Source: an uncultured Alcanivoracaceae bacterium (lineage in GTDB: Bacteria > Pseudomonadota > Gammaproteobacteria > Xanthomonadales > Marinicellaceae). From it: a stretch of 51,405 nt of DNA. Every line of letters starts with the position of its first letter. The first letter of the stretch is position 1. Below, piece after piece: positions 12,778 to 16,432 of this stretch. The position numbers and the translations under genes are program-made. The stretch lies in the NCBI GenBank assembly GCA_947311585.1, contig CAMZLQ010000002.1:1-51405 (forward strand). Direction: 5' to 3'. The notes under the pieces were generated by a model, which had not been told where the DNA came from, did no database searches, and saw nothing but the letters and a program-made list of their open reading frames with translations.

Positions 12778-14616
12778 ATGTTAAAAGTAATCTTCTTGTG
12801 TTTAATAAACACAATAGCTTTTGCTCAATTAAAATTTGAGCTAGCAAAAGAGCATTCAATAGTTAAAGGCAGTTCTGTAACAGATTTTACTCCTCATGGT
12901 ACTCAGCCGTTTTTGTCTTTTGGAATCGAGTCATCAAGTGGTTGTGGAGATTGTCATGGTGGTTTGCCTGCTATTCCTGAAGATAACACTTATATGCCAT
13001 ATCCTACTTGGGCAGGCTCAATGATGGCAAATGCAACGCGTGATCCCTTGTTTTGGGCTGCTGTGGATATTGCTAATAATGATATTCCTGGCGTAGGTGA
13101 TTTTTGTATTCGTTGCCATACTCCAACTGGTTTTTATGCTGGAAGAACAAAGGATGGCAATGGCACTATGAGTTATGCAAACGGCTGTGAACTTACAGGT
13201 AATATGACTTCAATTGAATCAAAAATTAATGATTATCAAGGAGTGACTTGTCATTTTTGCCATCGTCAAGAAACCAATGGTCCAACCGGTGAACCATTGT
13301 TAATGAAAAATTCTAATGTTTGGATTGATGATAATAGTTGCGATAACCCAAATAGTAGTAGCTTTGGTCCGTGCCGAAAGGGTCCTTATGTTCAACCTCT
13401 TAATATTCCTCACGAATGGAAATATTCTGACTTTGTTAAAAAAGGTGAGTTTTGCGGTTCGTGTCACAATGTTTCTTCACCAGAAATTACCACAAATGGA
13501 GTCACAACAATTGCAAGAACATTAATTGATGAAAATGGAGTTGATACCGGTGTTGCAATGCCAATTGAACAAACCTTTAATGAATGGAAAGCCAGTAGTT
13601 TTGCTCAAGGATTCTTTAGCAATAATTTTGAAACAACTCTGCCTCAATTGGATGATATAAATACAACTTGTCAAGATTGTCATATGCCTCAAGCAACTGA
13701 TCCAAATGCTCGGGCGTGTTCTTTTAATGCAGCTGGTGCTAGGGCTGGCAACCTTAAAACTCACGAGTTTGCTGGTGGAAATAGTTGGATGCCAGAAGTT
13801 TTGAAAAATTTATATGGAAATGCATTGGATAATGGAAGCTTTAGTCGTTCAGATGCTTTTGATAGAACCATCGCATCCGCTTTGGATATGTTGCAAAACA
13901 AAAGTGCTTTATTAGATTTATCAGTGGTTTCAAATACAGCAACGCAAGCCGTAATTAATGTGAAAATAACAAATTTAACAGGGCATAAATTACCAACGGG
14001 CTATCCAGAAGGGCGAAGAATGTGGATTAATGTTCAAGCTAAAGATGCAAATGATAATTTGATTTTTGAAAGTGGACACTATGATTCCGTTACTGCTGTG
14101 TTAACTGAAAATAACACAAAAATCTATGAATCTTTACAGGGAATATGGAATCCCACATTAAACATTTGTGAAACTGAACAAGGTGGCAGCAAAGTGTTTC
14201 ATTTTGCTTTAAATAATTGTATTGCTAAAGACAATAGAATTCCTCCGCTAGGATTTATTGGAGGGAATGATATAAAAATTAAACCACGTGCTTACAGCTA
14301 TCCAGTTAGAGCTGGTTTCCCTAGTCAGTTGGTAAATTATGATGAAACTCAATACACTATTGCTATCCCAAATGGTTCAGTATTGCCTATTTCTATAAGG
14401 GCTTCATTAAAATACCAAACAGCAAGTAAAGAATACATTGATTTTTTAGATACAGAAAGTACTGCAAATGCAACCCCTTCAGAAAATGCTTTGTGTAATC
14501 GCGTTCAAACCGTTGGTCCTGCCAATCAAAGTCGCTCATCATTTATGAAATCACAATGGCAGAACAATGGAAAATCTGCCCCAGTTGACATGGTTAGTCA
14601 AACAATACAACTATAG
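12778..14616 (+). CDS. Exported multiheme (five CXXCH) cytochrome c
   Basis: Signal peptide MLKVIFLCLINTIAFA; CGDCH, CIRCH, CHFCH, CGSCH and CQDCH motifs; C-terminal GHKLPTGYPEGRRMWINV. Confidence 0.9.
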   Translation: MLKVIFLCLINTIAFAQLKFELAKEHSIVKGSSVTDFTPHGTQPFLSFGIESSSGCGDCHGGLPAIPEDNTYMPYPTWAGSMMANATRDPLFWAAVDIANNDIPGVGDFCIRCHTPTGFYAGRTKDGNGTMSYANGCELTGNMTSIESKINDYQGVTCHFCHRQETNGPTGEPLLMKNSNVWIDDNSCDNPNSSSFGPCRKGPYVQPLNIPHEWKYSDFVKKGEFCGSCHNVSSPEITTNGVTTIARTLIDENGVDTGVAMPIEQTFNEWKASSFAQGFFSNNFETTLPQLDDINTTCQDCHMPQATDPNARACSFNAAGARAGNLKTHEFAGGNSWMPEVLKNLYGNALDNGSFSRSDAFDRTIASALDMLQNKSALLDLSVVSNTATQAVINVKITNLTGHKLPTGYPEGRRMWINVQAKDANDNLIFESGHYDSVTAVLTENNTKIYESLQGIWNPTLNICETEQGGSKVFHFALNNCIAKDNRIPPLGFIGGNDIKIKPRAYSYPVRAGFPSQLVNYDETQYTIAIPNGSVLPISIRASLKYQTASKEYIDFLDTESTANATPSENALCNRVQTVGPANQSRSSFMKSQWQNNGKSAPVDMVSQTIQL

Positions 14617-14624
14617 GAAAAATA

Positions 14625-15221
14625 ATGAAAAAATTAGCTATACTTATTCTTGTCATGCTATTAGACTTTAGTGCGAATGCAAAGGAAATTAAAATTCGTC
14701 CCTTTAATGAAGCGGATTTACCACAAAAAGCTTTATCTATATCTTATAAGAAAAATGGCGATATTAAGGAACTGGTCATGAGTCAATGGGTTGATAGAAT
14801 TAAGACTAAAGATGGTATGGTTTATAGAAAATACCAACAAGGCTATAATTATAAGAAGAAAAAAGGTTTTTTAAAGGTGTTTAATCTTGAGGGAGAGCTG
14901 TTAAATAAAAAATGGAGTAAAAAAATAGATGGCGGTATAACAAAAGAGGAATTGTTAATTGCCTATGATTTGTTTAAAAAGAATAAAGATGTTTTTGAAC
15001 ACATGCAAAAAACAAACTTATCAATCACTTTACATGGCGGTTTTAATTACCAAGATGATAAAAAATGTAAACCAGGCAGTAGGTGTGTACATATTTTTGC
15101 ATCGACGGCTGAAAATGCCATTTTGGCTCACTCTATCATTAGACTATCGGATGCTAAAGTTGTTTACCCTGAATACGATATGGAAAGTAATAGTAAAATA
15201 ACACATGTTAAAGGCATGTAA
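14625..15221 (+). CDS. Exported 198-aa protein; tentatively cystatin-like N2/N3-type domain of a copper-amine-oxidase-like system
   Basis: Signal peptide MKKLAILILVMLLDFSANA. GGITKEELLIAYDLFKKN...CKPGSRCVHIFAS...AHSIIRLSDAKVVYPEYD resembles CAO N-domain text (LTxEEI..., final VDLxxGKVV). CDS certain; domain call is by eye. Confidence 0.55.
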   Translation: MKKLAILILVMLLDFSANAKEIKIRPFNEADLPQKALSISYKKNGDIKELVMSQWVDRIKTKDGMVYRKYQQGYNYKKKKGFLKVFNLEGELLNKKWSKKIDGGITKEELLIAYDLFKKNKDVFEHMQKTNLSITLHGGFNYQDDKKCKPGSRCVHIFASTAENAILAHSIIRLSDAKVVYPEYDMESNSKITHVKGM

Positions 15222-15242
15222 TAAAAATAAAGAGAATATAAA

Positions 15243-16379
15243 ATGAAAAATACTGTATTTATGACATTAATGTTGTACTCAATTCTATCCTTTGCGGGAA
15301 CTCCTGCATGTACGGGGCCAGGAGAGGTTAAAGTTAGTTGGCCGACAAATGATCCTATTTGGGAGTTGTGCTACCTCACTCCAAGCAATAGTTCCGCAGC
15401 AGATGGCTCAAGTTTGGAAATTCGAGATGCCTATTTTAATGGTTTTTATGCTATTGAAAGAGCTCACATTCCGATGCTTTTTGCAAACTATACCACTTCA
15501 ACTTGTTATCGAGATTGGAAAAACACAAACTCTGAGTTTTTAAAAGCAGATAAAATTGAAAACCCAACAAGACCAGCTATTACCACATGTGATGTATCAA
15601 CTAGTCCAGATCAAGTTGTCTTTAATTGTCCATTTAAAGATTTGTCAACAGCAGATCCTAATGATAATGTTGGAAATGCCGCAGATTGCATGACAGGAGT
15701 TCAAGTTGAAAAGTATGCAGACAGAGTGGTCTTAACCACAAATCATTCAGCAGCTTGGTACAAATACTCATCTCGATATACTTTTTATCTTGATGGGCGT
15801 GTTGTTCCTCGATTTGGATTTGGTAACAGTAACGGAACAAACTCAGCCATAACGCATTGGCATCACGCTTATTGGCGTATCAATTTTGATATTGATGGAC
15901 CTGATAATGATGAAGTCTTCACTAATAATGATTTAATGACTACGGAATTTTTTGACTTTAGGAATCAAAGAAGAAATACGACATGGACAGTAAAAGATAG
16001 TGTCACAGGAAGAGGTTTTAGAGTGGAGGCGTCTCCAGAAGATTATTTGGTTAATGTTAATGAACCACCTCACAACCCCAGTAGCTACCACAATACAGAT
16101 ATAATGGTAACTAAATATAAGTTAGCTGTTGGCAACTCGATTCCTGAATACTCCGATACACCAGGTCAAAATAATTTAGGGAATTGTAACATGAACGAAA
16201 ATGCCTTAGTCAATGGCGAATCTATAGCGAATGAGGATGTGGTATTTTGGTATCGTGCAGCGGTCAATGACATCGCTAATCAAGGTTTGGTTTGTAAATT
16301 TGCGGGCCCTATATTTTATCCTGTTGGAGATTGGCAGCTTTCACAATACAGCTTGGTATTTGATAACGGTTTTGAATAA
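15243..16379 (+). CDS. Exported copper amine oxidase catalytic-domain-like protein with divergent cofactor motif
   Basis: Signal peptide; GSSLEIRDAYFNGFYAIERAHIPMLFANY...YRDW; VVLTTNHSAAWYKYSSRYTFYLDGRVVPRFGFG; THWHHAYWRINFDIDG (HxH copper-ligand region of CAOs); VVFWYRAAVNDIA. Confidence 0.7.
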   Translation: MKNTVFMTLMLYSILSFAGTPACTGPGEVKVSWPTNDPIWELCYLTPSNSSAADGSSLEIRDAYFNGFYAIERAHIPMLFANYTTSTCYRDWKNTNSEFLKADKIENPTRPAITTCDVSTSPDQVVFNCPFKDLSTADPNDNVGNAADCMTGVQVEKYADRVVLTTNHSAAWYKYSSRYTFYLDGRVVPRFGFGNSNGTNSAITHWHHAYWRINFDIDGPDNDEVFTNNDLMTTEFFDFRNQRRNTTWTVKDSVTGRGFRVEASPEDYLVNVNEPPHNPSSYHNTDIMVTKYKLAVGNSIPEYSDTPGQNNLGNCNMNENALVNGESIANEDVVFWYRAAVNDIANQGLVCKFAGPIFYPVGDWQLSQYSLVFDNGFE

Positions 16380-16402
16380 GCTCCAATAAGTATTTCCTTT
16401 CT

Positions 16403-16432
16403 AAAAGCCACAATTATTAATTGTGGCTTTTT
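16403..16432 (+). terminator. Rho-independent terminator after the redox locus (possibly bidirectional with gpmI)
   Basis: AAAAGCCACAATT-ATT-AATTGTGGCTTTTT. Confidence 0.85.

Follow-up and report, generated by a model that had tools for sequence, protein, structure and literature searches.

Three consecutive genes (g1, g2 and g3) on contig CAMZLQ010000002.1 of an uncultured Alcanivoracaceae bacterium (GTDB family Marinicellaceae; assembly GCA_947311585.1) encode an exported pentaheme c-type cytochrome and two exported proteins which together cover the fold of a copper amine oxidase (CAO), with departures from characterized CAOs at the third copper ligand and around the cofactor precursor tyrosine. 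The analysed stretch, referred to as the window, comprises positions 1 to 51,405 of this contig. As judged from sequence comparison, g1-g2-g3 may be an exported cytochrome-coupled dehydrogenase, which delivers its electrons to g1 rather than to O2, a reading that we prefer to its alternatives and find plausible though still short of probable. The split, cytochrome-linked CAO-fold family, which spans many bacterial phyla, appears to be undescribed; a search of the open literature, with most subscription journals outside its scope, found no description of this operon or of a linkage between a CAO and a multiheme cytochrome. New in this analysis are the changes in the active site, the wide distribution of the family and the finding that the linkage is asymmetric.

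A copper amine oxidase fold divided over two exported proteins

The three genes are located on the + strand and span 12778-16379, separated by 8 nucleotides (g1-g2) and 21 nucleotides (g2-g3), with no competing open reading frame across them on the opposite strand. Each product starts with a short basic and hydrophobic stretch that ends, by eye, at an A-x-A-like site, in place of which a lipobox-like L-x-x-C is seen in the majority of g2 homologues from beyond the Marinicella group. An earlier note, made from the letters of this DNA, had recognized three co-oriented genes with these gaps, a signal peptide on each, five CXXCH motifs in gene 1 and a strong terminator closing the locus; all these features were recovered, with exactly five motifs at C56, C110, C158, C226 and C298. 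A consensus terminator scan did not detect the hairpin at 16403-16431 because its stem is A+T-rich.

12778..14616, + strand: g1, exported pentaheme c-type cytochrome of 612 amino acids, with five CXXCH motifs and a profile match to ExtKL-like pentahemes
14625..15221, + strand: g2, exported protein of 198 amino acids, predicted counterpart of the CAO N2/N3 (cystatin-like) domains by AlphaFold/Foldseek and hhalign
15243..16379, + strand: g3, exported protein of 378 amino acids with a predicted CAO catalytic-domain fold by AlphaFold/Foldseek, hhalign and PF01179
16403..16431, + strand: intrinsic terminator with a 13 bp stem (-14.9 kcal/mol, z = -5.9)

For g3, the AlphaFold model (predicted local distance difference test, pLDDT, 84.9; predicted template modelling score, pTM, 0.87) retrieved CAOs from the PDB as all of the 50 best Foldseek matches listed (best E 5e-13), and the g3 profile aligned with TynA and seven annotated primary-amine oxidases over 274 columns (hhalign 98.6%, E 5e-16), so that the similarity to the CAO beta-sandwich, which had been set beforehand as a test, was borne out. 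The Pfam family PF01179 is found on g3 at E 8e-6 with 25.5 bits against a gathering cutoff of 27, in 31 of 40 g3 homologues at E up to 0.1, and above the cutoff in several relatives including fused ones (top 44.9 bits). As the PF01179 search of the window's own genome did not reach the threshold, automatic annotation would probably miss g3. A single-sequence PDB search with g3 gave no match, and the g3 profile search reached CAOs weakly, with the fused relatives required for a clear link.

The g2 model (pLDDT 90.3) likewise retrieved CAOs as its 12 best Foldseek matches in the PDB (probability 1.0, E ~2e-3 to 1e-2, template modelling score 0.47-0.57). Its profile aligned with real CAOs at TynA 189-307 (hhalign 82%, E 1e-5) and with the N-terminal ~220 amino acids of fused relatives (hhalign 92%, E 5e-7), distant homologues in which the g2 and g3 parts are united in one chain of ~515-580 amino acids; the window thus encodes in two genes what many relatives make as a single protein. 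By profile comparison and predicted structure, g3 is a CAO catalytic-domain fold and g2 the N-terminal (N2/N3) part as a separate protein, which agrees with the split architecture and the cystatin-like resemblance of gene 2 proposed in the earlier note. Compared with CAOs (PF01179 with PF02727/PF02728; E. coli TynA, Arthrobacter AGAO, yeast HPAO-1), the catalytic beta-sandwich of g3 and the N2/N3-like fold of g2 are shared, whereas the division over two exported proteins and the linkage to a pentaheme cytochrome are not. Some g3 proteins carry immunoglobulin-like (Ig), BACON or cadherin-like C-terminal repeats, which are typical of surface proteins.

An altered active site

Profile alignment with CAOs assigns the active-site residues of g3 as follows.

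15489..15491, + strand: Tyr83, aligned with the CAO Tyr that hydrogen-bonds topaquinone O4 (HPAO-1 Tyr305), conserved in all groups
15513..15515, + strand: Asp91 (in CYRDW), aligned with the CAO catalytic-base Asp (TynA precursor D413), conserved in all groups
15756..15764, + strand: Trp172-Tyr173-Lys174, with Tyr173 at the topaquinone-precursor Tyr and Trp172 at the strictly conserved Asn
15855..15863, + strand: His205-x-His207, aligned with the first two copper ligands
16089..16091, + strand: His283, invariant only in the g1-linked clade, with Gly, Ser or Ala elsewhere
16269..16271, + strand: Asp343, at the position of the third copper His

CAOs are characterized by the cofactor motif T-x-x-N-Y-D/E and three strictly conserved copper histidines (PMC3382800). 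From these enzymes g3 retains the topaquinone-precursor Tyr, the catalytic-base Asp, the partner Tyr and the His-x-His ligands, and Y83, D91, Y173, H205 and H207 are kept almost throughout the family, whose members range from Actinomycetota to Gammaproteobacteria. The topaquinone consensus, on the other hand, is lost, as g3 reads W-Y-K around the retained Tyr173; throughout the family Asn is replaced by Trp before the precursor Tyr and Asp/Glu by Lys, Arg, Met or Gln after it, with Trp-Tyr-Lys/Arg standing where CAOs have Asn-Tyr-Asp/Glu. The third copper ligand is Asp, which gives the set H205, H207 and D343 instead of three histidines. The equivalent of Asp343 is Asp in all 44 g1-linked homologues with a readable site, while outside the Asp clade a His is found in 33 of 35 homologues (24/25 fused, 9/10 split). 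Changes restricted to the g1-linked clade also affect other positions, foremost Phe80 and His283.

The landmarks that the earlier note had picked out in gene 3 fall on g3 residues 89-92 (YRDW), 205-207 (HWH) and 215-219 (FDIDG), and its description as CAO-like stands with respect to the fold. It cannot be read as amine oxidase, because the third copper ligand and the topaquinone consensus depart from characterized CAOs. Separately, the one of the 25 fused proteins without the third copper His, an acidimicrobial relative (L137:2863-4512), lacks not only this metal ligand but also the base Asp and the precursor Tyr, and is probably a pseudoenzyme on the basis of these losses.

Asymmetric linkage of the cytochrome

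In an order-level survey of 300 genomes, with the g1 and g3 counts read from two separate lists, g1 orthologues were present in 56 genomes, g3 in 37 and both in 36. Thus g3 is accompanied by g1 in 36 of 37 genomes, while g1 occurs without g3 in 20 of 56. The order g1-g2-g3 is the rule in the 36 g3 neighbourhoods fetched, often with overlapping gene ends. Nearly every homologous Lysobacterales locus examined has the identical three genes in the identical order, down to ~40% identity, and the arrangement is therefore not a matter of chance. Two g2-g3 pairs are found at L045 and L056-L058 and two g1 copies at L044, L059 and L060, and the genome of L063 combines g1 with a 96-amino-acid remnant of g3. 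In genomes lacking g3, g1 is found by itself at the corresponding Marinicella site (L185, L188, L192) or beside g4, an exported family described below (L195, L196, L198-L200, L202). Linkage of the cytochrome gene, also set beforehand as a test, consequently held for g3, which comes with g1, but not in the sense of a g1 dedicated to g3. The distribution looks like that of a g2-g3 module which would need g1, with g1 as a putative shared carrier that has more than one partner. A g3 divided by an apparent frameshift was observed in a Dokdonella metagenome-assembled genome (MAG) at L111:7971-9197.

A wider scan, with one genome per species, found 121 relatives, of which 80 were kept. Here g2-g3 without g1 occurs in some Acidobacteriota, in Rhodothermota/Bacteroidota, in one myxococcal MAG and in one cyanobacterium; the single fused protein of ~515-580 amino acids occurs in Actinomycetota, Bacillota, Nitrospirota, Chloroflexota, a Geobacter MAG and other Acidobacteriota. 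Homologues in a plasmid collection are labelled hypothetical protein or are unannotated. Among the fused relatives, those of Nonomuraea and other Actinomycetota (L136-L146) are without an evident signal peptide and often lie beside a beta-lactamase-fold protein (F5), and one in a Chloroflexi MAG has a protein with 21 CXXCH motifs nearby (L122:1425-3068).

The pentaheme cytochrome g1

The features of g1 are listed below; the heme-binding C, C and H of each motif are invariant in 39 g1 homologues.

12943..12957, + strand: heme motif 1, CGDCH (residues 56-60)
13105..13119, + strand: heme motif 2, CIRCH (residues 110-114)
13249..13263, + strand: heme motif 3, CHFCH (residues 158-162)
13453..13467, + strand: heme motif 4, CGSCH (residues 226-230)
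13669..13683, + strand: heme motif 5, CQDCH (residues 298-302)
13933..14076, + strand: C-terminal region around GHKLPTGYPEGRR (residues 386-433), with Tyr409 at the MccSep/ExtKL selenocysteine position

Full-length g1 aligns with ExtKL-like pentahemes from neighbouring loci with all five hemes in register (hhalign probability 99.6, E 4e-24), and two of these pentahemes match NF040886, the ExtKL equivalog model, at 4e-16 and 1e-13. The C-terminal Ig-like region of g1 matches the same model (E 1e-9) as well as PDB entries 9wt8 (selenoprotein MccSep) and 5ze8 (Thermochromatium tepidum c552). As g1 reaches 37.6 bits, far under the 250-bit cutoff of NF040886, it is by these profile comparisons a member of the ExtKL/T. 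tepidum c552 pentaheme superfamily and not ExtKL itself. With ExtKL, c552 and MccSep it shares the register of the five CXXCH motifs and a C-terminal Ig-like domain with G-H-x-x-P-x-G. In contrast to MccSep, Tyr409 is invariant in the 39 homologues and the selenocysteine of G-H-x-x-P-x-G-U is thus absent from g1; in contrast to ExtKL, which is linked to the ext cluster, g1 is linked to a CAO-fold protein. Candidate distal heme ligands are H159 (36/39 homologues) and H212, H329, H403 and H475 (39/39 each), a set that would suit an electron-transfer cytochrome. ExtKL, c552 and cable-bacterium pentahemes have been grouped together, and a relation to archaeal nanowire cytochromes has been suggested (PMC11976967).

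A second, more ExtKL-like pentaheme lies near g2-g3 in four loci (L084:1309-3057, L098:3585-5249, L102:4521-6176, L107:6118-8133), with a carboxypeptidase-regulatory-like domain towards the N-terminus in the two tested.

A possible cytochrome-coupled dehydrogenase and its alternatives

In the proposed mechanism, g2 as N2/N3-type subunit and g3 as catalytic subunit would together rebuild the CAO architecture from two polypeptides. The His-His-Asp site of g3 would hold a putative metal next to Tyr173, which would probably be oxidized to a quinone or radical cofactor; a primary amine or similar substrate would be oxidized through the base Asp91, and the electrons would pass from g3 to the pentaheme g1 instead of to O2, outside the cytoplasm. 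Transfer to the cytochrome, in an amine or aldehyde dehydrogenase-like system, had been suggested in the earlier note and is a plausible idea. Taken further, the family could be a rebuilt CAO branch, marked by Trp-Tyr and His-His-Asp, with a cofactor that is not topaquinone or is formed differently, and would act in Lysobacterales as a two-subunit dehydrogenase on a nanowire-related pentaheme, with amine-type electrons transferred directly to heme, an extension that we consider rather doubtful. Quinohemoprotein amine dehydrogenase and methylamine dehydrogenase have quinone cofactors made out of residues of the protein, and their electron acceptors are cytochromes or cupredoxins. The likeness is restricted to the proposed logic of an exported quinone enzyme with electrons going to heme; the folds and the cofactor precursors are unrelated, and g1, g2 and g3 matched no subunit of these families in profile-library searches.

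In favour of the dehydrogenase are the CAO folds of g2 and g3, the union of both parts in fused homologues, the conserved catalytic residues, the changes at Asp343, His283 and Phe80 in the g1-linked clade, the presence of g1 with nearly every g3 and the candidate heme ligands of g1; at one Holophagae locus with Asp, a different ExtKL-like pentaheme cytochrome is encoded next door. Several observations weigh against it. The assignment of the g3 active site rests on profile alignment, and the topaquinone consensus is broken in g3 at the position where an Asn-to-Ala exchange in HPAO-1 leaves only 5-10% of topaquinone (PMC3382800); topaquinone may also not form because one of the three strictly conserved copper histidines is lost. 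The tree places the replacement of His by Asp once, on the branch to Holophagae and Lysobacterales; g1 presence requires two changes. The match between Asp343 and the cytochrome, being confined to a single lineage, is therefore an association that does not imply cause, and counting it as repeated evidence was rejected. At two other loci of the Holophagae type that carry the Asp, no cytochrome is encoded within ~8 kb. Finally, g1 need not be the acceptor of g3, as it occurs without g3 in more than a third of its genomes.

That g2-g3 is an ordinary O2-using topaquinone CAO with a variant ligand set, and g1 merely co-transcribed, is in our view unlikely. While most catalytic residues are retained in g3 and the two functions can be separated, as g1 is found at sites of this kind by itself or accompanied by g4, two residues described as strictly conserved in characterized CAOs (PMC3382800), the Asn of the consensus and the His at the third copper ligand, are both changed, and g1 is not only present with nearly every g3, but immediately precedes g2 in essentially all Lysobacterales loci. 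The family-wide loss of the topaquinone consensus together with the H-H-D ligand set, reminiscent of 2-His-1-carboxylate sites, would fit a quinone-free metalloenzyme binding Fe, Mn, Zn or Cu, for which a role of the superfamily can be cited, as ExtKL sits in a Geobacter cluster implicated in selenite and tellurite reduction (PMC5877670). The conserved base Asp and topaquinone-positioning Tyr, needless without a quinone, speak against such an enzyme, which we likewise judge unlikely; the same low expectation applies to its corollary, that Tyr173 would be an unmodified ligand or a radical and that g1 would give or take electrons for a different reaction.

A non-catalytic binding or scaffold protein on a CAO fold, docking on the pentaheme g1, would be in line with the fused relative L137 devoid of catalytic residues and with the surface-type repeats of some g3 proteins, but is quite improbable given an active-site set that is near-invariant across very distant phyla. 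The diheme protein MauG makes the quinone cofactor of methylamine dehydrogenase. A comparable role of g1 as maturation factor, which would oxidize Tyr173 or a neighbour to a quinone after loss of the self-processing copper/Asn site, was considered in view of the altered self-processing determinants of g3 and the almost constant presence of the cytochrome, and was found to have no sequence support. We regard it as very improbable, since g1 belongs to the ExtKL/c552 superfamily with no MauG or peroxidase match in profile-library searches, relatives without g1 are also without the Asn, and g1 persists without g3.

Genomic setting, g4 and a shared C-terminal tail

The source genome is 2.24 Mb in size and incomplete (85%). 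Loci closest to that of the window are from Lysobacterales MAGs and form a group to which Marinicella also belongs. The operon is flanked by two housekeeping genes, recognized by reading as prfC-like and gpmI-like.

The g4 family comprises exported proteins of 600-700 amino acids with conserved N-D-Q-H-P and K-H-A-F-x-T-x-N motifs and a Cys (for example L106:9321-11372, L093:11152-13167 and L175:1118-2950), often beside g1 with or without g2-g3. Of the 80 scanned loci, 21 have a g4 gene flanking the operon; the source genome of the window has g4 as well, at an unlinked site. Searches of Pfam, NCBIfam and the PDB gave no family match and no credible PDB match for g4. Its candidacy as a lysyl-oxidase relative, suggested by eye from K-H-A-F...C-x-D-x-Y, was dropped after permissive comparisons with Pfam, the PDB and profiles found no match, and that as a divergent g3 was dropped since the BLAST grouping was due only to shared C-terminal repeat domains (hhalign 1.3%).

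The C-terminus of g3 is shared with other proteins of the genome.

16359..16379, + strand: g3 C-terminal tail F-x-x-G-F-E-stop

The general form F-x-x-[GDE]-F-E-stop, for which no established name was found, was counted at 27 sites in the source genome of the window, where a control pattern gave 3. Five Marinicella-group genomes have 24-33 sites against at most 5 for the control and genome G002 has 16 against 0, while G001 has none. Proteins that end in it are found, for example, at L149, L151, L154, L156, L157 and L161. Several of its bearers are visibly exported, and the tail looks like a sorting or anchoring signal.

Significance

The usual view of CAOs is that of O2-dependent enzymes whose cofactor motif is invariant and whose copper is held by three His. 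The g3 family keeps the base and the precursor Tyr and alters exactly the residues for self-processing and copper binding, and as such represents a natural experiment on the requirements for topaquinone. The link to a pentaheme cytochrome makes operation of the CAO fold as a dehydrogenase testable, and g2-g3 would give one branch of the ExtKL/c552 pentahemes, a family that is poorly understood, its first partner.

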